DNA of 64,000 nt, taken from Collimonas sp. OK607 (GTDB taxonomy: Bacteria > Pseudomonadota > Gammaproteobacteria > Burkholderiales > Burkholderiaceae_D). A model generated the notes under the pieces. The model saw nothing but the letters and a program-made list of their open reading frames with translations, did no database searches and was not told the DNA's origin. The position numbers and the translations under genes are program-made. Shown in pieces: positions 3,771-64,000 of this stretch; position 1 is the first letter of the stretch; each line of letters begins with the position of its first letter. The stretch covers positions 1 through 64,000 of the forward strand of contig NZ_FOKF01000029.1 of assembly GCF_900111995.1 (NCBI RefSeq). The letters run 5' to 3'.

Positions 3771-6700
3771 ATGCCGCCGCTACCGCCGTCATCCCAGCCA
3801 TCCAGCAACACTCCTTCCGCCACCATGTTCAGCACTCCATTCACCGCGTTCCACCACGAAGTCATGACCGATCCGACGCCATTGCGCGCCGCCATCACCG
3901 CTGCTTACCGGCGCGATGAAACGCTGGCCGTGCAATGGCTGCTGGCGCAGGTGCAGACCAGCGCCGGCTCGCATGCTGCCAGCCAGACGCTGGCGCGCAA
4001 GCTGGTGCAAGCGGTGCGGGAAAAGCGCACACGCGCTTCCGGCGTCGACGCTTTGATGCATGAATTCTCGCTGTCGTCGGAAGAAGGCGTGGCGCTGATG
4101 TGCCTGGCGGAGGCGCTGTTGCGGATTCCGGATCACCAGACTGCCGATCGCCTGATCGCCGACAAGATCAGCAAGGGTGACTGGCGCAGCCATCTGGGAG
4201 AATCGCCGTCGATGTTCGTCAACGCGGCCACCTGGGGCTTGCTGATTACCGGCAAGCTGGTGGCCACCAATAGCGAGCGTGGGCTGGGCTCGGCGCTGAC
4301 TAAATTGATCGGCCGCGGTGGTGAACCGCTGATCCGCAAGGGTGTCGACGTTGCCATGCGCATGTTGGGCAATCAATTCGTCACCGGCCAGACCATCGCT
4401 GAAGCACTCGACAACAGCCGCGACAATGAAAAGCGCGGCTATCGTTATTCCTACGATATGTTGGGCGAAGCGGCTTTGACGGAAGAAGATGCGGCCGCCT
4501 ATTACCGCTCGTATGAAGATGCGATCCATGCCATCGGCAAGGCTTCGGCCGGGCGCGGCATCAAGCAGGGGCCGGGGATCTCGGTCAAATTGTCGGCGTT
4601 GCACCCGCGTTATTCGCGCGCGCAACGGCAACGTACGATGGAAGAATTGCTGCCGCGTTTAAAACAATTGCTGCTGCTGGCTAAACAGTACGACATCGGT
4701 TTGAATATCGACGCTGAAGAAGCCGATCGCCTGGAATTGTCGCTGGATTTGATGGAAGCACTGGCGTTCGATCCTGATCTGGCCGGTTTCGACGGCATCG
4801 GTTTTGTGGTGCAGGGTTATCAGAAGCGTTGTCCTTTCGTGATCGATTATCTGGTCGACCTGGCGCATCGCAGCGGCCGTAAATTCATGGTGCGGCTGGT
4901 CAAGGGTGCTTATTGGGATTCTGAAATCAAACGCGCGCAGGTCGACGGCTTGTCCGGTTTTCCGGTATATACCCGCAAGGTGTACACCGATGTTTCGTAT
5001 CTGACCTGTGCACAAAAATTGCTGGCGGCGACCGATGTCATTTACCCGCAATTTGCTACGCATAATGCGCATACGCTGGCTACCATCTACAGCTGGGCGC
5101 AAGAAAAAAATATAACCGATTATGAATTCCAATGCCTGCACGGCATGGGTGAAACCTTGTACGACCAGGTGGTCGGCAAGGACATGCTGGACAAGCCTTG
5201 CCGGATCTACGCGCCGGTCGGTTCGCATCAGACTTTGCTGGCTTACCTGGTGCGGCGCTTGCTCGAAAACGGCGCCAATTCTTCTTTCGTGAACCAGATC
5301 GTCGATGAGAATGTTTCGATTGATTCGCTGATTGCCGATCCGCTGCAAGCCGCACGGGAACTGGGCGGAGAGCCGCATCCGCAAATTGCATTGCCGTTGG
5401 CGATGTACGGCGCGGAACGCAAGAATTCGGCCGGCCTGGACTTGAGCAACGAAGAAGTACTGCGTCAGATCGAAAGCGCTTTCGGCGTATTCGGCAAGCA
5501 GCAATGGCATGTCGCGCCGATGTTGGCCGAACCGCAAACCTTCAACCAGGCTGCGCGTCCGGTATTGAATCCGGCCGACCAGCGTGACGTGGTCGGCAGC
5601 GTGATCGAAGCCAGCGTAGCCGATGTGGATAAAGCTTTGCACGCCGCCAGCGTCTACGCCATGGATTGGCAAACCCTGCCGCCGGCGGAACGGTCCGACA
5701 AACTGGATCGCGCCGCAGCATTGTTCGAAGATAATCAGCTGGAATTGATCGCCTTGGCGATCCGCGAGGCAGGAAAATCGCTGCCCAACGCTATTGCTGA
5801 AGTACGCGAAGCGGTCGATTTCTTGCGCTACTACTCGGCACAGGTCCGGCATGCGCAGAATGCGCTGGCGCTGGGGCCGGTGGTGTGTATCAGCCCGTGG
5901 AATTTCCCGTTGGCGATTTTCATCGGCGAAGTCAGCGCTGCGCTGGCCGCCGGTAACGTGGTGTTGGCCAAGCCGGCCGAACAGACGCCGCTGATCGCCG
6001 CGCGCGCAGTACAACTGATGCATGAAGCCGGCGTGCCGCACGCAGCCCTGCAATTCTTGCCGGGCCAGGGTGACACCGTCGGCGCTACACTTACCGCCGA
6101 TTCACGCGTCAAGGGAGTGATTTTTACCGGCTCGACCGAGGTTGCGCAAATCATCAATCGCACCTTGGCCAAACGTTCGCAGGCGGAATCGGTCGACTTG
6201 CCGTTGATCGCCGAAACCGGCGGCCAGAATGCCTTGATCGTCGACTCCAGCGCGTTGCCGGAGCAAGTAGTGCAGGACGTGCTGAGTTCGGCTTTCGATA
6301 GCGCCGGCCAGCGCTGTTCTGCTTTGCGCGTACTGTGCCTGCAAAACGATATCGCTGATCGCACCTTGCATATGCTGAAGGGCGCCATGCAGGAGCTGCG
6401 GATTGGTAATCCCGATCGTTTGAGTACTGATATCGGGCCGGTGATCGATGCCGATGCGCAGGGCCAGTTGTTGGCCCATATCGAAAAGATGCGCACCACG
6501 GCGAAAGATTTCTATCAGTTGCCGCTGCCGGCTGAACAAAGCAACGGCACTTTCGTGGCGCCTACGCTGATCGAAATCGGTTCCATGTCTGAGTTGAAGC
6601 GCGAAGTATTCGGCCCGGTATTGCATGTGCTGCGTTATGCGCGCAACGACCTGCCGCAACTGATCGACGCCATCAACGGCAGCGGTTACGGCCTTACCCT

Positions 6701-12190: not shown

Positions 12191-13492
12191 TCAATCCAAT
12201 CCATCAAACACCGCATCGTCCGGCCCCACATGGTGTGGCGAACGCCAGCTGACATCTCGCATCGAATGCTGCACCTGATTCTCCACGCCTAGCAAAGTAG
12301 CAAAGATCGCCATTCTTACCGGTATGCCATTGTCGGTCTGGCGGAAAATCGCCAGGCGCGGATCGTGGTTTAGATCCGTGCTGAGGTCGTTGGCGCCGGG
12401 GCGGCCGTCGCGCGGCAAAGGATGCATGACGATGGTGTCGGCGCTGCAGGTGGCATCGATCATAGCCTGGTTAATCTGGAAATCCGGGGTATAGCCTTCT
12501 ATCGCTTCATCGGCAAAGCGCTCCTTCTGGATCCGCGTGGCATATACGATATCGGCACCTTTCAACCCCTGCGCCAGGGAAGTGGATTGTTCCACCACAT
12601 GGCCACCGCGTGCAATCCGGTCCAGGATATGCGCAGGCATCTCCAGCCCAGGCGGTGCGATCAGGGTGAACCTCAAGCCGCGATACAGCGCCAGCAGCTT
12701 GATCAGCGAATGCACTGTGCGGCCGTACTTCAAATCGCCCGCCATGACGATGTGGGCGCCATCTATCAGTTTCCCTAGCCGCGAGAATTCGCGTTGTATG
12801 GTGTACAGGTCGAGAATCGCCTGGCTCGGATGCTCGCCGGGGCCATCGCCGCCATTGATCACCGGGATATTCGTAGCGCGGGCGAATTCGTCGACCGCCC
12901 CTTGTTCCGGATGCCTGACCACCAACGCGTCGACATATCCGCTAATGACACGGCTGGTGTCGTAAATCGACTCGCCTTTGGTCATGGAAGAGAAGGTGAA
13001 GCCGGTTGTATCGCATACCGAACCACCCAGCCGGCAAAAGGCCGCCCCAAAACTGATACGCGTGCGCGTGCTGGCTTCAAAGAACAAATTGGCTAGCACG
13101 GCACCCTCGAGGATGCGCGAGACCTTCTGGCGCCTTGCAATGGGCTGCATGATGTCCGTCACGCGGAACAGCTGCTCGAGCGAATCTCGCGAAAACTGGT
13201 CTACCGACAGGAGTTGCGGTTTGCCGTTATAGGAAATCTGCTCGCGTAGCGGTGCATCTGGTCTTGCTATATATACGCTCTGCGTTAAAGGCGATTTCGT
13301 TGACTCGCCCGCAAGGATTTCGTTGACGAATTTGCTGACAATGTCAGGCATGACGCGGAATTCGCCGGAAGTTTCTGGAAGCAACCAGGTATCCAATGCG
13401 CGCTTTCGAACGCCGATTCGGTCGGAAAAATTATCCCTGGTGAGGTTCATGCGACGCATAGCGTCGCGGAGAAAAGTCTGTTGATCGCTCAT
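12191..13492 (-). CDS. pyrB: Aspartate carbamoyltransferase with N-terminal helix-turn-helix extension
   Basis: 433 residues from the ATG at 13492, which has AAGGAA about six bases upstream; the ATG at 13498 touches that signal and is less likely. From about residue 91 the protein is a full ATCase catalytic chain: carbamoyl-phosphate loop 'ASTRTR' (140-145), 'GEHPSQAILDLYTI', and the late 'HPLPRDGR'. It condenses carbamoyl phosphate and aspartate in pyrimidine synthesis. The first 60 residues are not part of the usual catalytic chain (about 300-340 residues). 'LTRDNFSDRIGVRKRALDTWL' looks like a Cro/XRE-type helix-turn-helix. No pyrI or dihydroorotase gene is adjacent. Whether this is the housekeeping enzyme or a regulatory paralogue cannot be told from here. 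Confidence 0.88.
   Translation of the reverse strand: MSDQQTFLRDAMRRMNLTRDNFSDRIGVRKRALDTWLLPETSGEFRVMPDIVSKFVNEILAGESTKSPLTQSVYIARPDAPLREQISYNGKPQLLSVDQFSRDSLEQLFRVTDIMQPIARRQKVSRILEGAVLANLFFEASTRTRISFGAAFCRLGGSVCDTTGFTFSSMTKGESIYDTSRVISGYVDALVVRHPEQGAVDEFARATNIPVINGGDGPGEHPSQAILDLYTIQREFSRLGKLIDGAHIVMAGDLKYGRTVHSLIKLLALYRGLRFTLIAPPGLEMPAHILDRIARGGHVVEQSTSLAQGLKGADIVYATRIQKERFADEAIEGYTPDFQINQAMIDATCSADTIVMHPLPRDGRPGANDLSTDLNHDPRLAIFRQTDNGIPVRMAIFATLLGVENQVQHSMRDVSWRSPHHVGPDDAVFDGLD
13274..13286. promoter_or_regulatory. Operator-like dyad C, inside the HTH-ATCase gene
   Basis: TACGCTCTGCGTT has TACGC and GCGT(T) arms around three bases. With its flanking TATATA it shares 14 of 15 bases with the dyad just upstream of the gene (13508-13520). 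It lies in coding sequence (codons for QSVYIARP), so its conservation in two places is notable but could be chance. Confidence 0.35.
13451..13467. promoter_or_regulatory. Operator-like dyad A, perfect 7-3-7 palindrome at codons 9-14
   Basis: GCGACGC-ATA-GCGTCGC is a perfect inverted repeat whose core ACGCATAGCGT is the same as that of the dyad at 13508-13520 read on the other strand. It lies 55 bases (centre to centre) from that site. Binding by the protein's own helix-turn-helix is inference. Confidence 0.4.
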
Positions 13493-13507
13493 TCGCATTT
13501 CCTTATA

Positions 13508-13520
13508 TACGCTATGCGTA
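13508..13520. promoter_or_regulatory. Operator-like dyad B, upstream of the HTH-ATCase start
   Basis: TACGC-TAT-GCGTA is a perfect five-base inverted repeat lying directly before the ribosome-binding site of the ATCase gene, where a bound protein could block transcription or translation. It shares its core with the dyads at 13451 and 13274. Confidence 0.45.
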
Positions 13521-13649
13521 CATTAAAGCTTTGAATTTCGCTTGTCCAGATTTTTCGTTTTTTTACCGCTGCTTATTATTTAGGCAGAAGAAAAATTTTC
13601 TTAAAAATTGCCTGTCTGAACTAAAAAACATCCGTAAACAGCCGTTTTT

Positions 13650-13885
13650 TTCGATTTTGTGGATAAATCTGTGGATATTGTGCTTTTCAATTGTGGATAT
13701 CTGGAATAGTTTTCCACAGCCGTCTTTTTATCCAAGAACTATTCTTCGGGGATACACCGATTACTCAGCCTTTATCCAATTCGCAAGTCATTGAATGAAT
13801 GGTAAAATTTATAGTTATCCACAGAAAAGCAGGACGTTAACTACTACTACTATTTATATATATAAATCTTTAAATACAAAACCGA
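13650..13885. repeat. Origin module, copy 1 of a direct duplication
   Basis: The order in this copy is: TGTGGATAA 13658, TGTGGATAT 13670 and 13692, TTTTCCACA 13710, TTATCCAA 13728 and 13772, TTATCCACA 13815, CTA x4 13841, AT tract to about 13876. Copy 2 repeats this order at a constant offset of 391-392 bases. The strongest identity runs from GTTAACTACTACTAC through TCTTTAAATACAAA. Confidence 0.88.
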
Positions 13886-14040
13886 AAAGCTTTTTCTTTT
13901 GAAGTTGCTTTGAAAAAATAATTAACGAAAAGAAGTTAAAAAGCCAACTTTTCAAAAAAAATTAGCTTTTTGTTCAAGTTCTATTTGATGGAGTTTACAA
14001 AAGACATCTACTTCAAAAGTAGAAAAGAAGGGGATCCAGA

Positions 14041-14280
14041 AAAGCAACTGTGGATAAGTCTTTGGATAACTACAGGAATCCATTGTGAATAAATACGTTA
14101 GATATCCACACCCTATTTTTTATCCAAGAAATGTTCTTTCCAGATACAAGGTTTACTCAGCCTTTATCCAAGTCGTAAGTACTTGAATGAATAGTCAAAT
14201 TCGTACTTATCCACAGAAAAACACGTGGTTAACTACTACTACTATTTATATATATAAATCTTTAAATACAAAGCTGAAGA
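14041..14280. repeat. Origin module, copy 2 of a direct duplication
   Basis: This copy carries TGTGGATAA 14049, TTTGGATAA 14061, TGTGAATAA 14084, ATATCCACA 14102, TTATCCAAG 14120 and 14164, TTATCCACA 14207, CTA x4 14233 and an AT tract to about 14268. Box cores and the trio/AT block are conserved relative to copy 1, while the bases between boxes have diverged. That pattern suggests selection on the boxes. The 150 bases between the copies are A/T-rich with no boxes noticed. Confidence 0.88.
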
Positions 14281-14334
14281 AGCTGGTTTTCCAAAAAAAG
14301 AGGGGTTATCCCTTAGAAAAATGCTTTTAAAGCA

Positions 14335-15222
14335 TTAATTACGCCAAATCGTTTTCAATATTGCAAATATTGCAGCGATAACTGGATCGTCTTTACGTTT
14401 ATCCAGGGTGATAAACGAAAGTTCGGTGGATAAATTGACCGTGTCTGAAATTACCAGGCCATGAGCATGTGCTTCCCGTAATGCAATTGACTCGCGCACC
14501 AAAGATAGACCAACTCCGGATTTCACCAGATCCAGCATCGATGGTTCCTGATCAACCAAAGCAACTTTATTCGGAGTAACTTTGTATTGAGCAAAGGTTT
14601 TACTGAGTAAACGATGATGGGCCGACTCTGGCGGAGTCCAAATCCAGGGTAATTCAGCCAATGCAGGCCAGTCTTTTCCGGAAACGCGGCTTTTCCAACC
14701 TGATGGTGCAAGCACACAGTAAGTAAATTGTGTCAGTGTGAGCCGATGGAAAGTTTTGCTTGGTGTGCCGAGGTAGTAGCCGACATCGAGATGGCCTGAT
14801 TTGATCTGCCGAAGTACATCACCAGACATGCTGTGTTGCAACTGTGTAGAAAGCTGTGGATAACTTTCTACCAAACGCTGAAGGAAAGCGCCGAGCCGGA
14901 TAAATTCAGGATCGAGAATAGTGCCGATCGCGAGTTTTCCGCCCAGTATTTCAGAGCTGTTTGAATGCAGGCTTTCTGCTTGTTGACGTAATTCGGACAC
15001 GGCGGCGATTGCACGTTCGGCAAATGGCAGTAACTTGGTGCCATCAGCGGTTAACGTCATGCCGCTTGGGATGCGTGTAAATAATTGCAGATTCAAGCTG
15101 CTCTGCAACGACTTGATTTGCAGGCTGACAGCCGGTTGTGTGACATGTAGTAATTCGGCAGCGCGGGTCAGATTTCCTTCTCTGGCGACGGTGACGAAAG
15201 CGCGAAGTTGGGTAATATCCAT
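14335..15222 (-). CDS. LysR-family transcriptional regulator
   Basis: 295 residues. The N-terminal winged helix-turn-helix (about 1-60, 'MDITQLRAFVTVAREGNLTRAAELLHVTQPAVSLQIKSL') is typical, followed by a two-lobed effector domain ('GGKLAIGTILDPEFIRLG', 'HLDVGYYLG', 'VKSGVGLSLVRESIA'). It is divergent from mmsA across 140 bases, so it most likely controls the mmsA-GMC genes; the inducer is unknown. The gene ends at the edge of the origin-like block. Confidence 0.9.
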   Translation of the reverse strand: MDITQLRAFVTVAREGNLTRAAELLHVTQPAVSLQIKSLQSSLNLQLFTRIPSGMTLTADGTKLLPFAERAIAAVSELRQQAESLHSNSSEILGGKLAIGTILDPEFIRLGAFLQRLVESYPQLSTQLQHSMSGDVLRQIKSGHLDVGYYLGTPSKTFHRLTLTQFTYCVLAPSGWKSRVSGKDWPALAELPWIWTPPESAHHRLLSKTFAQYKVTPNKVALVDQEPSMLDLVKSGVGLSLVRESIALREAHAHGLVISDTVNLSTELSFITLDKRKDDPVIAAIFAILKTIWRN

Positions 15223-25017: not shown

Positions 25018-26943
25018 ATGCTTTTTCCTACAAATTTTGATGTAATCGTCGTCGGCGGCGGTCATGCCGGCACCGAAGCCGCGCTGGCGTCCGCTCGCAT
25101 GGGCCAAAAGACTTTATTGTTGACTCACAATATCGAGACCTTGGGTCAGATGTCGTGCAATCCTTCAATTGGTGGGATAGGCAAGGGCCACCTTGTAAAA
25201 GAGGTTGATGCCATGGGTGGCGCGATGGCTATCGCCACCGATGAAGCAGGTATCCAGTTTCGTATCCTGAATTCCTCAAAAGGTCCGGCAGTACGCGCAA
25301 CCCGCGCGCAAGCCGACCGTATCCTGTACAAGCAAGCGATTCGCTCCCGGCTGGAAAATCAGGAAAACCTTTGGTTGTTCCAGCAAGCCGTGGATGATCT
25401 GCTGGTAGAGGGCGATCGCGTGGTTGGCGCCGTGACGCAAGTTGGCATCCAGTTCCGTAGCAGGGCAGTGGTCTTGACCGCCGGTACTTTCCTGGATGGG
25501 AAGATCCACGTTGGTCTCAATAACTATTCGGCTGGTCGCGCCGGCGATCCACCGGCGATTTCCTTGTCGGCACGCCTGAAAGAACTGAAGCTGCCGCAAG
25601 GTCGTCTGAAGACCGGCACGCCACCACGTATCGATGGCCGCACCATCGATTTTTCGGTGATGCAGGAGCAACCGGGCGATCTCGATCCGGTGCCAGTATT
25701 TTCCGTGATGGGGAATACTGCGATGCACCCGGCGCAACTGCCATGCTGGATTACCCATACCAACCAGCAAACGCATGACATCATTCGTGCCGGCCTCGAT
25801 CGCAGCCCGATGTATACCGGCGTGATAGAGGGAGTGGGGCCGCGTTACTGTCCATCCATCGAAGACAAGATCCATCGCTTTGCCGGCAAGGATTCGCATC
25901 AGATATTCCTGGAACCGGAAGGCTTGACCACCAACGAGTTCTACCCGAATGGCATTTCGACAAGTTTGCCATTCGATGTGCAGCTGGCTTTGGTGCATTC
26001 GATGCGCGGGTTGGAGAACGCGCACATCCTGCGCCCCGGTTACGCTATCGAATACGATTACTTCGATCCACGTGGTTTGAAGGCTTCGCTGGAAACCAAA
26101 TTGATTCAAGGCTTGTACTTTGCGGGTCAGATCAATGGCACTACAGGTTATGAAGAGGCAGCGGCCCAAGGTATGCTGGCCGGCTTGAACGCCGCTTTGC
26201 AAACACAAGAACGCGATGCCTGGACTCCACGGCGCGACGAGGCTTACCTTGGTGTACTGGTCGACGACCTGATTACCCAAGGCGTGCAAGAGCCTTACCG
26301 CATGTTCACCAGCCGCGCCGAGTATCGCCTCAGCCTGCGCGAAGATAACGCTGACTTGCGCCTGACAGAGATCGGCCGTCAGCTCGGTTGCGTCGGTGAT
26401 GCGCAATGGGTGCAGTTCGAGAAGAAACGCGAAGCGGTAGCGCTGGAGATGGAACGCCTGCGTTCAACCTGGGTGAATCCCCGCATCGTGGCCGAAGCAG
26501 AAGCCGAGCGTTTGCTTGGCAAGTCCATTGAGCGCGAATATTCCCTGGTCGACCTGTTGCGCCGGCCAAACGTTACTTATGATCAACTGATGACGCTCAA
26601 GGGTATCGATGGCCAGGATCTGGGTGGCCCGGGCGTTCAGGACGATACGGTCAAGGAACAAGTCGAGATCCAGGTTAAATACGCCGGCTACATTGACCGC
26701 CAGGCGAAAGAAGTAGAGCGCCATGAGCACAATGAAAACCTGAAGCTGCCTGCCGATCTGGATTACATGGATGTGCAAGCCTTGTCGATTGAGGTGCGCC
26801 AAAAGCTGAACCTGCACAAGCCGGAAACTTTCGGCCAGGCTTCGCGGATTTCAGGCGTCACGCCGGCGGCGTTGTCGCTGTTGCTGGTGCACCTGAAAAA
26901 AGGTGGCATGAAGCGTCTGGATGCAGACGATCAGGCTGCCTGA
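25018..26943 (+). CDS. mnmG: tRNA uridine-5-carboxymethylaminomethyl modification enzyme MnmG (GidA)
   Basis: 641 residues, usual family length. The FAD-binding '[21 protein letters not shown]' opens the protein; '[21 protein letters not shown]' and '[18 protein letters not shown]' are MnmG signatures, and '[25 protein letters not shown]' is a third. With MnmE it modifies the wobble uridine of several tRNAs. It starts the block mnmG-rsmG-lysE-parA-parB, an order common near bacterial origins. mnmE is not in the window. Confidence 0.97.
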
Positions 26944-27016
26944 TTGCTAAATTACGTAATTGCTTAATAATCAACTACCATCAAGGTAATTGCCGGGATA
27001 ATCGAGGAGTGGCACC

Positions 27017-27694
27017 ATGAGTTCAACGCAGACCGCGCCAGCGGCACAACAAGCGCTGGAAGCGAGCCTGCAGCAAGGTGCGCAAGCATTGGGGATCGAA
27101 TTGGATCCCCAACAGCAGCAGCAATTGCTGGCTTATCTGGCATTGTTGGCGAAGTGGAACCGGACCTATAACCTGACTTCGATCCGCGAACCAGCGCAGA
27201 TGATGACGCACCATTTGCTGGACTCCCTGGCGGTGGTGCCGGCCTTTGCCGCGGCGGAGCATGTGCTGGACGTCGGCTCGGGCGGCGGCCTGCCAGGAGT
27301 GATCCTGGCGATCTGGGCTGCCAAGGCCAAGCCGGCGATGCGGGTGTCGATGATCGACACGGTGCACAAGAAAACGGCATTCCTGACGCAGGTCAAAGCC
27401 GAGCTAGGCCTTGCCAACGTCACAGTTCATACCGCAAGAGTAGAGCAGTTGCAGGTAGTGCAAAAATTTGATGTGATCACTTCCAGGGCATTTGCCGAGC
27501 TGGCGGATTTTATTAACTGGTCAGCGCATTTGTTGACGGATAATGGCCAATTCATTGCTCTCAAGGGCATACAGCCGGACGAAGAAATCGCGCGCCTGCC
27601 AGCCGGTTGGCAAGTGACGGAAGTGCGGCCACTAAAGGTGCCGGGACTGGATGCAGAACGCCATCTGATTTTTATCAAACGCAGTGCAGCGTAG
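27017..27694 (+). CDS. rsmG: 16S rRNA (guanine-527-N7)-methyltransferase RsmG (GidB)
   Basis: 225 residues, ATG preceded by GAGGAGTGGCACC. The SAM-binding motif 'VLDVGSGGGLPGVILAI' and 'YNLTSIREPAQMMTHHLLDSL' are RsmG hallmarks. It methylates G527 of 16S rRNA; loss is known to give low-level streptomycin resistance. It follows mnmG by 73 bases. Confidence 0.96.
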   Translation: MSSTQTAPAAQQALEASLQQGAQALGIELDPQQQQQLLAYLALLAKWNRTYNLTSIREPAQMMTHHLLDSLAVVPAFAAAEHVLDVGSGGGLPGVILAIWAAKAKPAMRVSMIDTVHKKTAFLTQVKAELGLANVTVHTARVEQLQVVQKFDVITSRAFAELADFINWSAHLLTDNGQFIALKGIQPDEEIARLPAGWQVTEVRPLKVPGLDAERHLIFIKRSAA

Positions 27695-27770
27695 ACGAAG
27701 CAGTAATACCAAACTACAGTAAGGTAGCCTGTCCAATCTCAGCCTGATCCATCACAGGAGTAAATTCATC

Positions 27771-28406
27771 ATGAGCGCCTTGTTTCATACCCTCGGCATT
27801 ACCGATGTCTGGCAATTGATCGTCGCCACCATGGTGTTCCTGATGCTGCCGGGTGCCGGTACTTTTTGTATCCTGACCAGCGCCGGCCGGCATGGCGTGC
27901 GGGGCGGTTATGCATCGCTGTTCGGCATCATGCTGGGCGACGCCGTGCTGATGTTTTTGGCAGCGATAGGCGTAGCAGCCTTGCTGACAGCGAATCCGCT
28001 GGTGTTCAAGGGCGTGCAATATTTAGGCGCTGCTTATCTGGCTTACCTCGGCTGCAAATTGTTATTTGCGAAGAAGGGTGCTGACGCCAGTGCCGCTGTC
28101 GGTTTTACCGGCGCCGGCAATTTTTCCCGCGGCTTCCTGGTGACCTTGGTCAATCCCAAGGCAATTGTGTTTTACATGGCGTTTTTCCCGTTGTTCATCG
28201 ATCCGGCGACGCAGCGCGGCAGCCTCACATTCCTGACCATGGCTGCAATCATCTCCAGTTGCGCGCTGTTTTACGGTAGTCTGCTGGTACTGCTCGGGAA
28301 CACTGCTGCCAAACGCCTGGGACACAATCGCCGTATTGCCGCATTCGCCTCCAAAGCCGCAGGAATTTTCCTGATCGGTTTTGGCATCAAATTAACGACT
28401 AACTAA
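27771..28406 (+). CDS. LysE/RhtB-family amino acid exporter
   Basis: 211 residues with five to six hydrophobic segments. 'MLPGAGTFCILTSAGRHGVRGGYASLFGIMLGD' is the family's conserved N-terminal block, and 'GFLVTLVNPKAIVFYMAFFPLFID' the second. Family members export lysine, homoserine, threonine or other small amino acids. It sits between rsmG and parA; the start is preceded by CAGGAG. It has no evident functional link to segregation. Confidence 0.88.
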   Translation: MSALFHTLGITDVWQLIVATMVFLMLPGAGTFCILTSAGRHGVRGGYASLFGIMLGDAVLMFLAAIGVAALLTANPLVFKGVQYLGAAYLAYLGCKLLFAKKGADASAAVGFTGAGNFSRGFLVTLVNPKAIVFYMAFFPLFIDPATQRGSLTFLTMAAIISSCALFYGSLLVLLGNTAAKRLGHNRRIAAFASKAAGIFLIGFGIKLTTN

Positions 28407-28428
28407 ATCACGACCTTCATACCAATAC

Positions 28429-29199
28429 ATGGCAAAAATATTTTGTGTCGCCAATCAAAAGGGCGGGGTCGGTAAAACCACCACCGCCGTCAATCTGGCC
28501 GCTGGCCTGGCGCAACTGAATCAACGCGTCTTGCTGGCCGATCTCGATCCACAGGGTAATGCCACCATGGGCGCCGGGATCAACAAGGGCACGCTGACGG
28601 CGTCGATCTACGAAGTGCTGTTGGGGATGTCGGATATCAAAGCGGTCCGCAAAACTTCAGAGACCGGCGGCTTTGATGTGCTACCGGCAAATCGTGAACT
28701 GGCCGGTGCCGAAGTGGAAATGGTCGAGCTGGAAAATCGCGAGAAACGTTTGAAGGATGCTTTCACCAGCGTTGCAGACGAATACGATTTCATCCTGATC
28801 GACTGTCCGCCGGCGCTCTCGATGCTGACGCTGAACGGATTGTGCGCAGCGAACGGGGTAATCATCCCGATGCAGTGTGAATACTATGCGCTGGAAGGTT
28901 TGTCGGACCTGGTCAACACCATCAAGAAGGTACACGCCAACCTGAATCCCGACCTCAAGATCATCGGCCTGCTGCGTGTCATGTTCGATCCACGCATGAC
29001 TTTATCGCAACAGGTTTCGGAGGAGTTGGAAAAGCACTTTGGCGACAAGGTGTTCAAGACGGTTATCCCGCGCAACGTGCGTCTGGCGGAAGCGCCGTCG
29101 TATGGCATGCCGGGTGTCACTTTTGACGCCGCTTCCAAAGGGGCGCAGGCTTATATCGCCTTTGGCGCCGAGATGGTAGAACGTATCAAGACAATGTAA
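28429..29199 (+). CDS. parA: Chromosome partitioning ATPase ParA (Soj)
   Basis: 256 residues, the chromosomal type without an N-terminal helix-turn-helix. The deviant Walker A is 'KGGVGKTTTAVNLAA', with 'LADLDPQGNAT' and the Walker B-like 'FILIDCPPALSMLT'. It forms ATP-dependent dimers on DNA that pull ParB-parS complexes apart. It starts 22 bases after the exporter gene and precedes parB. Confidence 0.96.
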   Translation: MAKIFCVANQKGGVGKTTTAVNLAAGLAQLNQRVLLADLDPQGNATMGAGINKGTLTASIYEVLLGMSDIKAVRKTSETGGFDVLPANRELAGAEVEMVELENREKRLKDAFTSVADEYDFILIDCPPALSMLTLNGLCAANGVIIPMQCEYYALEGLSDLVNTIKKVHANLNPDLKIIGLLRVMFDPRMTLSQQVSEELEKHFGDKVFKTVIPRNVRLAEAPSYGMPGVTFDAASKGAQAYIAFGAEMVERIKTM

Positions 29200-29299
29200 T
29201 ACATAAGTTGTACACCGGCTATACACCGCCTTTGCACAGACTTATACGCAACTCATCAACAGCTTATCAATATGGTTGCAAACAGGGTTATCAACAGAG

Positions 29300-29308
29300 T
29301 TATCCACA
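29300..29308 (+). promoter_or_regulatory. DnaA box in the parA-parB spacer
   Basis: A perfect TTATCCACA sits 41 bases before the parB start, with one-mismatch TTATCAACA at 29288-29296. The 149-base spacer is rich in repeated CTTATCA/GTTATCAACA strings. Possible DnaA control of parB, or a minor DnaA-titration site. Confidence 0.55.
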
Positions 29309-29348
29309 ACCCCGTTGCAAGGTAATCAGTAATTTACGGTAGGAAAAG

Positions 29349-30245
29349 ATGGTCACGAAAAAATCAAAAGGATTGGGCCGCGGCCTGGAGGCTTTACTGG
29401 GCGGCTCCACCGATATCACGGAAGCTGTGCCGACTATTGCCGGCGCGCCATCGGTATTGGCGGTCACCGTCATGCAAGCCGGTAAATACCAGCCGCGTAC
29501 GCGCATGGACGAGGGCGCCTTGGCCGAGCTGGCAGCGTCGATCAAGGAGCAGGGCTTGCTGCAGCCGATCCTGGTGCGGCCGATCGCCTTGCACAATGGT
29601 TCCCAGCACTATGAAATCATCGCGGGTGAGCGGCGCTTCCGTGCGGCGCAGCTGGCCGGCCTGATCGAGGTGCCGGTGCTGGTCAAGGATGTCGACGACC
29701 AGACCACTGCGGCGATGGCGCTGATCGAAAACATGCAGCGCGAAGACCTGAATCCGCTGGAAGAAGCGCAAGGTATTCACCGTCTGATCACCGATTTCAG
29801 CTTTACCCATGAGCAGGCAGCGGTATCGGTAGGGCGTTCGCGCAGTGCGGTCTCGAATCTGTTGCGATTGCTGAACCTGGCCAGGCCGGTGCAAACCATG
29901 CTGATGGCGGGCGATATCGATATGGGCCACGCGCGGGCGCTGCTGGCGGTGGACGCCGCAACCCAGATCACGCTGGCCAACCAGGTCGTGGCCAAACGGA
30001 TGTCGGTACGCGATACCGAAAAACTCGTGGTGCGCACCACCACCGAGGCCGATTCAGCTAGCCGGCCAGCCAAAACCAAGGAAAAGTCGCGCGATATCGC
30101 GCGGCTGGAAGAAGAGTTGTCTGATTTGCTGGCGACCCAGGTAACAATCAAGACCGCAGCCAAGAATCGCGGTCAGCTGATTATCGATTTCTCGGATCTG
30201 GATACGCTTGACGGTTTGATTGCTCGTCTCAAAGGTGCAGAGTAG
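29349..30245 (+). CDS. parB: Chromosome partitioning protein ParB (Spo0J)
   Basis: 298 residues. The N-terminal CTPase/ParB domain has 'QPRTRMDEGALAELAASIKEQGLLQPILVRP' and 'EIIAGERRFRAAQLAG'. The central helix-turn-helix ('SFTHEQAAVSVGRSRSAVSNLLRLLNL') recognises parS, and a short C-terminal dimerisation domain follows. The parS sites at 24.8 kb are its expected targets. It is preceded by AGGAAAAG. Confidence 0.96.
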   Translation: MVTKKSKGLGRGLEALLGGSTDITEAVPTIAGAPSVLAVTVMQAGKYQPRTRMDEGALAELAASIKEQGLLQPILVRPIALHNGSQHYEIIAGERRFRAAQLAGLIEVPVLVKDVDDQTTAAMALIENMQREDLNPLEEAQGIHRLITDFSFTHEQAAVSVGRSRSAVSNLLRLLNLARPVQTMLMAGDIDMGHARALLAVDAATQITLANQVVAKRMSVRDTEKLVVRTTTEADSASRPAKTKEKSRDIARLEEELSDLLATQVTIKTAAKNRGQLIIDFSDLDTLDGLIARLKGAE

Positions 30246-61658: not shown

Positions 61659-61770
61659 GCGTGAGGCAATAGGCGCTTACCGGCGCCCGTCTATGCCTGC
61701 TAACTGGTGCGGAATGTTGTTACACAGTGTCACGCATAACACATTCGGCACCAATCAGGCGATTGTCACT

Positions 61771-62055
61771 CGCTAGTTATGCACAAAAAAAATCTGCTGC
61801 ACCACGGCAATTTTTTATAACTATATTTATTATTTAGCCCTTGAATACGTTTTGTAAGTGTTTGATTTTAAATGATTTATTTTCTGCTTTTAGTTTAGGC
61901 AATTTATTGAGACCCGCATCAAATATGCGTCTGCAGCCTGTCAAGACCAGGTTACCCACAAAGTTATCCACAGACATTGTGGATAATTTGAAAAGCGCTT
62001 ATGAAACCGATGGTTAGGACATTTCCTAATGTTTTACATTAAGTAGAATCTTAGG
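61771..62055. repeat. DnaA-box module before priA, copy 1
   Basis: This copy carries GTTATGCACA (61776), TTTGATTTTAAATG, TAGTTTAGGCA, the box trio 61952/61964/61978, then AAAAGCGCTTATGAAACCGA and TTTTACATTAAGT. The same strings in the same order appear in copy 2 with an offset of 454-457 bases, so the pair is an imperfect direct duplication. Confidence 0.8.
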
Positions 62056-62227
62056 ATTAAGGATTTCCCGAGCATTTTTGACAGTTGACATCGGACTAAT
62101 TTTTTCGATGCGAAACTTGATGATCCAATAGCAAAAAGCAACATGATGGTGCAGGTCAGTGCATTTGGCTGTATTCATGGATGTTACTTTTTGGTGCCTG
62201 CACTTGTTGACTCCTTGCTGATTTCGA

Positions 62228-62505
62228 ATTTAGTTATGCACATATTGAAGTTACTTCAAGGCTATTTTTTTACTACATGAGAATTACTACCTATCAAGAG
62301 TGAATAGGTTAAGCCTTTGATTGTAAATGGTATTTTTATTGATGCTAGTTTGAGCAAGAGCCAAAATATGTCGTAAACAGGCGCTTTCACGTTGTTTACG
62401 CAACCTTGTCCACAAAGTTATCCACAGATTTTGTGGATAGTGCTCAAAAGCACTTATGAAACTGATAGTTAGCTTATTTCCTCGGGAATTACATTAAGTT
62501 CGTGA
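62228..62505. repeat. DnaA-box module before priA, copy 2
   Basis: This copy carries GTTATGCACA (62233), TTTGATTGTAAATG, TAGTTTGAGCA, the box trio 62406/62418/62432, AAAAGCACTTATGAAACTGA and ATTACATTAAGT, running directly into the priA start codon. Boxes are better conserved between copies than the bases around them. Confidence 0.8.
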
Positions 62506-64000
62506 AACAAAGCATTCTCCAAATCGTCCTCGACACTCCCTTGGATAGCAGTTTCGACTATCGCTGGCAGGCCAGCGATGAAAGCGAAGCCATGCCCCAA
62601 ATCGGACAGTTGGTTCAGCTTTCTTTCGGTCGCCGCGAAGTAGTCGGCATGATTGTCGGCATCAGCGCCGAGAGCGACGTGCCAGCCGAAAAATTAAAAA
62701 ACGTCCAGGCGGTGCGCCATCAGCTGCCGCCGCTCTCGAAGCAATGGCTCGCTCTCTGTCGTTTTGCAGCCGATTATTACCAGCGGCCGCTGGGCGAAGT
62801 AGCGTTACCGGGTTTGCCGAAAAACCTGCGTGCGCTGACCACCGTGGCGTTGGATCGCGGCTTGAAGAAATTGCAGCAAGCCGGCGCCGCGCACGATGCC
62901 ACGCCGATTGACGTGGCACAGCTGAATCCGGCACAACAGCAGGCGGCCGATGCGATTGCGGGCGCCACCGGCTTTGCGCCGACGTTGCTGTATGGCGTCA
63001 CCGGTAGCGGCAAGACCGAGGTCTATCTGCAGGCTGCGGCACAAATCCTGGCCCATAGTGAAAACGGCGCGGACAATCCCTCGCAAATCCTGATCCTGGT
63101 GCCGGAAATCAATCTGACGCCGCAACTGGAGGGCAACATCCGCGCCCGTTTCCCAGGCGTGATGGTGGCGACTTTGCATAGCGGCCTGGCGGAAGGCGAG
63201 CGCATGCGTCATTGGCTGGCAGCGCATTTGGGACAGGCGCGGATTATTCTCGGGACCCGGCTGGCGGTGTTGGCTTCGTTGCCACATTTAAAGCTGATCG
63301 TCATCGACGAGGAACACGACCCGTCCTACAAGCAGCAAGAAGGTTTGCGCTATTCGGCACGCGATCTGGCGGTGTGGCGTGCTCATCAGTTGGGGATTCC
63401 GATTGTGCTGGGCTCGGCCACGCCATCGCTGGAAACCTGGCATCACACTCAATCCGGACGCTACAAGAAACTCGAACTGCGCGAGCGGGCGGTCAAGGAT
63501 GCGGTATTGCCGCTGGTGCGCCGCATCGACATGGAACGCGACAAACCCAGCGAGGGACTGACCTCGACCCTGGTTAGTGCGCTCAAGCTAAGGCTGGAGC
63601 GGGGCGAGCAATCGCTGTTGTTCCTGAACCGCCGCGGTTACGCGCCGGTGATCGCTTGCGATGCTTGCGGCTGGGTCAGCAACTGCACCCGCTGCACCTC
63701 GTTCATGGTGCTGCACAAACCCGAACATCGCCTGCGCTGCCATCATTGCAGCCTGGAGCTGCGGATCCCGAAATCCTGTCCAACCTGCGGTAACGTCGAT
63801 TTGCAGCCGTTGGGACGCGGCACGCAACGATTGGAAGAGGGATTGCGAGCGATGTTTCCGGAAGCACGGGTATTGCGCATCGATGCCGATTCCACACGTC
63901 GCAAAGGTAGTGCCCAAGCGGCTTTCGATAGCGTGCACAACGGTGAGGTAGATATTTTGATCGGCACCCAGATGGTCGCCAAGGGACATGATTTCAAAAA
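62502..64000 (+). CDS. priA: Primosomal protein N' (replication restart helicase PriA), 3' end outside window
   Basis: 499 residues are visible from a GTG start at 62502 (an in-frame TAG at 62466 limits upstream choice; Shine-Dalgarno weak). The N-terminal DNA-binding region ('VLDTPLDSSFDYRW', 'GQLVQLSFGRREVVGMIVG') is followed by the helicase P-loop 'LLYGVTGSGKTEVYLQAA', 'LVPEINLTPQLE', the DEEH box 'LIVIDEEHDPSYKQQEGLRYSARDLA', and a zinc-binding set of eight Cys ('CDACGWVSNCTRC', 'CHHC', 'CPTC'). 'DILIGTQMVAKGHDF' is at the right edge. PriA restarts stalled forks. The gene starts at the end of a DnaA-box module. Confidence 0.96.
   Translation, partial: MKQSILQIVLDTPLDSSFDYRWQASDESEAMPQIGQLVQLSFGRREVVGMIVGISAESDVPAEKLKNVQAVRHQLPPLSKQWLALCRFAADYYQRPLGEVALPGLPKNLRALTTVALDRGLKKLQQAGAAHDATPIDVAQLNPAQQQAADAIAGATGFAPTLLYGVTGSGKTEVYLQAAAQILAHSENGADNPSQILILVPEINLTPQLEGNIRARFPGVMVATLHSGLAEGERMRHWLAAHLGQARIILGTRLAVLASLPHLKLIVIDEEHDPSYKQQEGLRYSARDLAVWRAHQLGIPIVLGSATPSLETWHHTQSGRYKKLELRERAVKDAVLPLVRRIDMERDKPSEGLTSTLVSALKLRLERGEQSLLFLNRRGYAPVIACDACGWVSNCTRCTSFMVLHKPEHRLRCHHCSLELRIPKSCPTCGNVDLQPLGRGTQRLEEGLRAMFPEARVLRIDADSTRRKGSAQAAFDSVHNGEVDILIGTQMVAKGHDFK

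Follow-up and report, generated by a model that had tools for sequence, protein, structure and literature searches.

Twin predicted DnaA unwinding modules at a putative chromosomal replication origin of Collimonas sp. OK607

Introduction

Bacterial origins of replication are usually described with a single opening site, and oriC of Escherichia coli, which adjoins mnmG (gidA), has one unwinding region. In bipartite origins, such as those of Helicobacter pylori and Bacillus subtilis, clusters of DnaA boxes flank dnaA and only one of them has an unwinding region. Origins away from dnaA are already known, and one precedent is Cupriavidus metallidurans, which belongs to the same bacterial order as the genome studied.

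On chromosome 1 of C. metallidurans CH34, the skew transition lies about 90 kb from dnaA and adjoins a 213-nt region with three perfect DnaA boxes (PMC2864759). E. coli oriC also lies apart from dnaA, and has a weak score as a basal unwinding system (PMC8287927). For Burkholderia cenocepacia, in the passages of the published account that deal with the matter, the exact origin was left open by the authors.

The closest described system is the basal unwinding system (BUS), composed of a DnaA-box, a spacer, and DnaA-trios, and found in B. subtilis and other bacteria (PMC8287927; PMC6669920). By the rule of the published search, the box may have up to two mismatches and the spacer may not exceed 16 nt, except where a further box intervenes (PMC8287927). 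For more than 99% of the genomes the program retained a single candidate (PMC8287927), and therefore repeated modules would not show.

Here, we describe a locus in Collimonas sp. OK607 that is very probably the chromosomal replication origin (oriC) and that contains two complete units of this general type. In common with BUS, each has a strong box, a short spacer, at least three trios of the 3'-GAT-5' type, and an AT tract, with the difference that BUS is one module and here there are two. Like E. coli oriC, the locus is separated from dnaA and near mnmG, but it is doubled and about 11 kb from that gene, where E. coli has a single unwinding region. It shares with bipartite origins the presence of more than one DnaA-box cluster at a (putative) single origin, and differs from them in having triplets and an AT tract in both units. 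It also has both a duplication and trios, neither of which is described in the part of the C. metallidurans report concerned with the CH34 region (PMC2864759). As far as our literature searches show, it is new for an unwinding core to be doubled (in some genomes triple or inverted) and to be maintained across a family: no description of tandem modules was met in searches on repeated unwinding modules and on where the origin lies in this group.

Results

Two complete units in one intergenic region

The window analysed is a stretch of 64,000 nucleotides (contig C36, positions 1-64000) of a 5.37-Mb genome in 90 contigs, and all coordinates refer to it unless a genome is named (Table 1). The intergenic region between the aspartate carbamoyltransferase (ATCase) and lysR genes is 68.3% AT, against 44.7% for the window, and a unit of roughly 215 bp occurs in it twice in direct orientation, at a distance of 391-392 bp. 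Each unit has about seven DnaA-box-like sites, in the order of three minus-strand boxes, a plus-strand box, a pair of TTATCCAA-type sites, and TTATCCACA, which is followed by 17 nt, CTACTACTACTA, and TTTATATATATAAATC. The repeat (13687-13886 and 14079-14278) has 81% identity over 200 bp at an offset of 392, the first boxes of the two units are offset by 391, and the two AT tracts are identical. Every element named by an earlier sequence-only reading of the window (two direct copies with boxes, TTATCCACA, a 17-base spacer, four CTA triplets, and the same AT tract) was re-found.

Allowing up to one mismatch, 10 DnaA boxes lie within 13655-14216 and 35 in the whole window, as against a mean of 9.2 expected from shuffles, and 4 of the genome's 37 perfect copies of TTATCCACA fall in the twin-unit locus. 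None of 20,000 mononucleotide shuffles of 13500-14330 yielded any match to the box-spacer-triplet pattern. The locus thus has the DnaA-box cluster and the AT-rich region adjoining the boxes that are looked for in an oriC. With regard to BUS, both units have a perfect TTATCCACA next to the trios, where up to two mismatches are allowed, and four CTA triplets (3'-GAT-5' on the other strand), where at least three trios with a middle adenine are required. Within 16 nt of the trios, the best site is a reversed one, with 4 mismatches in unit 1 and 2 mismatches in unit 2. We class the units as BUS-like, not as strict members, because the 17-nt spacer exceeds the published limit by one base. The earlier assignment to the known basal unwinding architecture is therefore borne out for the box, the trios, and the AT tract, and is one base too generous for the spacer.

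The hexamer GTTAAC lies right before the triplets (13836-13841 and 14228-14233), is kept in both units across the genus loci, and is common to most units of relatives, with GTTTAC in the type that has a 13-nt spacer. When the window was scanned for modules under lax rules, further weak matches came up at 14049 (minus), 14102 (plus), and 62234 (plus), which are excluded from the count.

The dnaA gene of this genome is on a separate contig (C60), in agreement with the earlier statement that none is nearby. The partition elements it had named are present as well: parA at 28429, parB at 29349, and sites at about 24823 and 24883 that we take to be parS-like, with 0 mismatches to the consensus. An Rfam search over the window gave nothing at the gathering score, and a tRNA/tmRNA search of the window found none. 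A 16-bp repeat, TATATACGCT[C/A]TGCGT, occurs inside the ATCase gene (13270-13285) and just upstream of it (13504-13519), and is perhaps an autoregulatory site of that gene.

Table 1. Features of the twin-unit locus and its neighbourhood (window coordinates); invariant columns are from the alignment of 13 genus loci.
Feature	Position	Strand	Conservation or remark
ATCase gene, one flank of the intergenic region	12191-13498	-	
Intergenic region with both units	13499-14334	.	836 bp, 68.3% AT
Unit 1 (DnaA-box array, spacer, triplets, AT tract)	13655-13868	+	
Unit 1 DnaA box 1, TTATCCACA	13658-13666	-	8/9 columns invariant
Unit 1 DnaA box 2, ATATCCACA	13670-13678	-	
Unit 1 DnaA box 3, ATATCCACA	13692-13700	-	
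Unit 1 DnaA box 4, TTTTCCACA	13710-13718	+	9/9 columns invariant
Unit 1 box-like site 5, TTATCCAAG	13728-13736	+	2 mismatches; 9/9 columns invariant
Unit 1 box-like site 6, TTATCCAAT	13772-13780	+	2 mismatches; 7/9 columns invariant
Unit 1 DnaA box 7, TTATCCACA	13815-13823	+	adjoins triplets; 8/9 columns invariant
Unit 1 box-to-triplet spacer	13824-13840		17 nt
Unit 1 triplets, CTACTACTACTA	13841-13852	+	other strand 3'-GAT-5' trios; 10/12 columns invariant
Unit 1 AT tract, TTTATATATATAAATC	13853-13868	.	likely unwinding element
Inter-unit spacer	13869-14040	.	72.7% AT; 32/156 columns of 13885-14040 invariant
Unit 2 (DnaA-box array, spacer, triplets, AT tract)	14045-14260	+	
Unit 2 DnaA box 1, TTATCCACA	14049-14057	-	9/9 columns invariant
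Unit 2 DnaA box 2, TTATCCAAA	14061-14069	-	
Unit 2 DnaA box 3, TTATTCACA	14084-14092	-	
Unit 2 DnaA box 4, ATATCCACA	14102-14110	+	2/9 columns invariant; unconserved across the genus
Unit 2 box-like site 5, TTATCCAAG	14120-14128	+	9/9 columns invariant
Unit 2 box-like site 6, TTATCCAAG	14164-14172	+	9/9 columns invariant
Unit 2 DnaA box 7, TTATCCACA	14207-14215	+	adjoins triplets; 8/9 columns invariant
Unit 2 box-to-triplet spacer	14216-14232		17 nt
Unit 2 triplets, CTACTACTACTA	14233-14244	+	10/12 columns invariant
Unit 2 AT tract, TTTATATATATAAATC	14245-14260	.	
lysR gene, other flank of the intergenic region	14335-15222	-	
mnmG, rsmG, parA, parB (neighbours on the putative origin side)	25018-30245	+	

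The duplication is older than the genus

The region was searched for in 40 genomes (own included) and was found in 17: our own, 12 of 14 same-genus relatives (80-96% identity), and 4 of 9 other family members, in which the matches are weak pieces. Of the two same-genus genomes with no match, one is 1.7 Mb and the other is 86% complete. Both units are present at all 13 genus loci found, our own among them. When the 26 units are placed in a tree, the second copies fall into a single clade with a support of 1.000, from which it follows that the duplication is older than the genus and that gene conversion is not erasing the difference between the copies, over the unit as a whole. Gene conversion could explain the final 45 aligned bases of the units, from GTTAAC to the end of the AT-rich tract, which are identical.

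Conservation follows the boxes and triplets. Between units 1 and 2, these are identical at 68 of 75 positions, as compared with 110 of 157 elsewhere (Fisher p = 2.5e-4), so the divergence previously seen between boxes holds except in the identical final 45 bases. Across the 13 loci, 127 of 150 box and triplet columns are invariant vs 220 of the 461 other columns of 13655-14265 (Fisher p = 1.2e-16), and in the inter-unit spacer 32 of 156 are. Four [C/T]TA triplets are retained in 26/26 genus units; the five sets that deviate from CTA x4 always do so by a C to T change at the first base of a triplet, which therefore remains a valid trio type. The comparison across relatives, proposed earlier as a check, thus agrees with the view that both copies are kept.

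Multiple units recur in the family

The pattern TTATCCACA-N(11-22)-YTAYTACTA matched 73 of 116 family genomes (own included) and its control, the same pattern backwards, matched 0 of 116. Among the matching genomes at least 36 have two or more units, at least 34 have them within 1.5 kb, and at least four have three, while 37 show a single unit by that pattern; the remaining 43 of the 116 had no match. The multi-unit count is an underestimate, with five genomes (G048, G056, G088, G110, and G128) entered as single: G048 has three units, and in the other four, of which G128 is Herbaspirillum aquaticum, the triplet run of a second unit is imperfect. With at least 34 of 116 family genomes having two or three matches within 1.5 kb, the earlier view that two copies are unusual does not hold in this family.

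Two or three full triplet runs are found in several genera, and some units of relatives have a 13-nt spacer. The pairs are inverted in G016 and G047; in loci L047 (8410-9420) and L115 (1501-1999) of these relatives, the modules face each other about 1 kb and 0.5 kb apart. A broader module finder, run over 2.4 Mb of G003, G005, G048, and G098, gave 8 matches, all of them at the twin-unit locus.

Beyond the family, a sample of 150 genomes from the order (5 of them of the family) gave 10 matches, of which 6 were among the 145 outside the family, and none of those six had a close unit pair; the control matched once, in one genome (G152). As the pattern was made from the family, it understates units outside it. 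A multi-phylum scan returned at least 119 named loci; with at least three boxes required nearby, among those listed 77 have one module, 23 have two or more, and 19 have none. Among the 23 multi-module loci listed, 14 consist of one triplet run with two adjacent boxes and 9 of two modules more than 200 bp apart; 8 of these nine are labelled as Burkholderiales genera or Burkholderiaceae and one as Pantoea sp. 18069. This last locus (L181), the label of which may be wrong, has two modules 429 bp apart with 14-nt spacers. The three-box rule dropped Undibacterium amnicola and a Curvibacter, both of which have two modules by looser rules.

Placement relative to dnaA and strand asymmetry

The gene order putA-[units]-...-mnmG-rsmG-parAB-atp is kept in three relatives (G003, G098, and G048) and partly in other loci. 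In neither G098 nor G048 did ATCase turn up next to the units, and the earlier placement of the origin next to this gene describes a feature of the genus. In six same-genus genomes assembled into one or two contigs, the distance between the units and dnaA is 48-62 kb on the assumption of circular contigs; elsewhere it goes from about 7.6 kb (G056) to 719 kb (G015). Thus, the units are indeed away from dnaA, as had been remarked, and the distance is nothing special given this range in relatives and the Cupriavidus and E. coli precedents. No cluster of at least four DnaA boxes per 500 bp was found at dnaA in G003, G098, or G048, and no module at dnaA in G003, G005, G048, G098, or our own genome.

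The clearest placement comes from G015 (6,136,891 bp), with the units at 5.4175-5.4179 Mb and dnaA at 0.5 kb. Here, GGGCAGGGCA is on the plus strand at 32/33 sites from 0.02 to 2.43 Mb and on the minus strand at 22/23 sites from 2.53 to 5.02 Mb, with none beyond; GGGCAGGGCT is plus at 15/18 sites up to 2.42 Mb, minus at 18/21 from 2.46 to 4.97 Mb, and plus at 5/6 from 5.52 to 6.13 Mb; and, of 301 sites for GGGCAGGGC, the first 100 listed, which extend to 2.07 Mb, are without exception plus. The polarity switch therefore falls somewhere from 5.02 to 5.52 Mb, a 0.5-Mb interval that takes in the units and leaves dnaA outside, with small site numbers near the switch.

In two of four relatives, raw GC skew agrees with the locus. 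In G048, the cumulative minimum over a 600-kb stretch falls at 1,858 kb (range of the step, 1,808-1,917 kb), beside the units at 1,854-1,855 kb, with dnaA at 2,201 kb; for G005, a step was fitted at -55 kb (bootstrap range, -67 to -31), with the units at -62 kb and dnaA at 0. The other two misfit. The G003 step at +25 kb (7 to 44) misses both the units (-48.5 kb) and dnaA, with a steady fall of the skew ending near -44 kb, close to the units. In G098, the minimum over 600 kb is at 4,605 kb, the units are at 4,446 kb, and the step fit of 4,182 kb (4,148-4,202) has dnaA in its range with the sign unchanged. The skew check in these relatives thus gives a divided answer, and within the window itself the cumulative minimum is near 4 kb, not at the foreseen 13.5-14.3 kb. 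As for other measures, the octamer minima (+38 kb in G003, +22 kb in G005) are off the units, the fourfold-site skew minima miss them in all four genomes (G003, G005, G048, and G098) with wide ranges, and the gene-strand fits in these four are mutually discordant. KOPS (GGGNAGGG) switch near 1,951-1,956 kb in G048, about 100 kb from the units, and are too sparse near the origin in G003 and G005.

Taken with the G015 switch, which places it best, the locus is probably at the chromosomal origin, as first suggested. A dnaA-linked origin is ranked low because the scanned dnaA loci have neither box cluster nor module and, in G015 and G048, lie off the switch; G003 and G098 do not rule against it cleanly.

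A further box cluster in the hemE-priA gap

Another duplicated cluster of DnaA boxes lies between hemE and priA (61740-62520). Its two units, roughly 300 bp long and displaced by about 454 bp, both have TTATGCACA and three closely spaced boxes. The cluster has 8 boxes (up to one mismatch) in 676 bp and no CTA-rich triplet run; the lax scan yielded only CTATTTTTT at 62234. In relatives, box clusters besides the units are found near hemE (G003, G098, and G048), at 4,436 kb (G098), and at 1,917 kb (G048), with the hemE-side cluster almost 200 kb from the twin units in G098 and G048. Lacking CTA-rich triplets, and with its counterparts off the raw skew minimum in G003, G098, and G048, the cluster was rejected as the origin. 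It may be a titration or reactivation site of the datA/DARS kind, or perhaps it controls priA.

Discussion

Here, we propose that the locus is oriC in the form of a tandem origin, in which two complete modules for unwinding by DnaA have been inherited separately and both work, a reading that we regard as reasonably likely. By analogy with the basal unwinding system, DnaA would fill the array of about seven sites in each unit, pass from the last strong box (TTATCCACA) over the short spacer onto the single-stranded 3'-GAT-5' trios, and so open the adjoining AT tract for helicase loading. The two modules would constitute two opening sites, of the same polarity here, and such multiplicity may make initiation more robust or more cooperative. 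Each unit can probably open alone, since both have kept their boxes and triplets from before the genus arose and many relatives carry two or three units. In relatives these are imperfect in some and inverted in others, and the opposite polarity makes it unlikely that polarity is the point, so that redundancy or cooperativity appears the likelier purpose of the doubling.

Might only one of the two units open, with the other being a DnaA titration or timing site or a decaying former core? Array quality does differ between the units, as at the box at 14102, four Herbaspirillum-type loci have a second unit in which the box and GTTAAC are retained beside imperfect triplets, and 37 of the 73 matching family genomes are single-unit by the stricter pattern. 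Against this, triplets would be dispensable for titration and yet each of the 13 genus loci retains them in its two units, where they change only to another trio type, and full runs are present two or three times over in several genera; we consider single-unit opening a minority prospect, though one to be taken seriously. That the repeat is a neutral tandem duplication with no functional meaning we find scarcely credible. Slippage can create direct repeats, and the identity of the last 45 aligned bases is explicable by gene conversion, but the copies predate the genus and, taken across the whole unit, are inherited separately, other genera have multiple units at different spacings and in different orientations, and the conservation of functional columns and not of the inter-unit spacer contradicts neutrality.

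A further option is that replication starts elsewhere, at dnaA or at a box cluster such as that of hemE-priA, and that the locus is a DnaA-binding regulatory region. The G003 raw skew step, which is nearer to dnaA than to the units, the G098 step-fit range, and the eight boxes of the hemE-priA cluster with its hemE-side counterparts in three relatives are all consistent with this. It is nonetheless improbable in our estimation: dnaA has no box cluster of the size sought (G003, G098, and G048) and no module (these genomes, G005, and our own), the switch in G015 and G048 is away from dnaA, and the hemE clusters are off the raw skew minimum in the three relatives (G003, G098, and G048), our own having no CTA-rich triplets. 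Hence, a tandem origin with two working modules is the reading that we prefer.

In light of these findings, what might the doubling mean for the family? That many related bacteria keep two or three cores makes it look useful and not accidental. There is, in our judgement, an even chance that this Burkholderiales family has multi-core origins, with two or three full modules within about 1-2 kb, each opening and loading helicase. The units, which lie up to 719 kb from dnaA in complete relatives, are also a warning against the convention of setting the origin at dnaA.

If multi-core origins, in direct or inverted order, are indeed the rule here, then initiation would be redundant or shared between cores. 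A family that keeps two or three cores is natural material for asking what number of opening events an origin requires, by what route each of the two forks receives its helicase, and whether repeated cores alter timing, with the inverted pairs of G016 and G047 and the direct pairs elsewhere offering a ready-made comparison.
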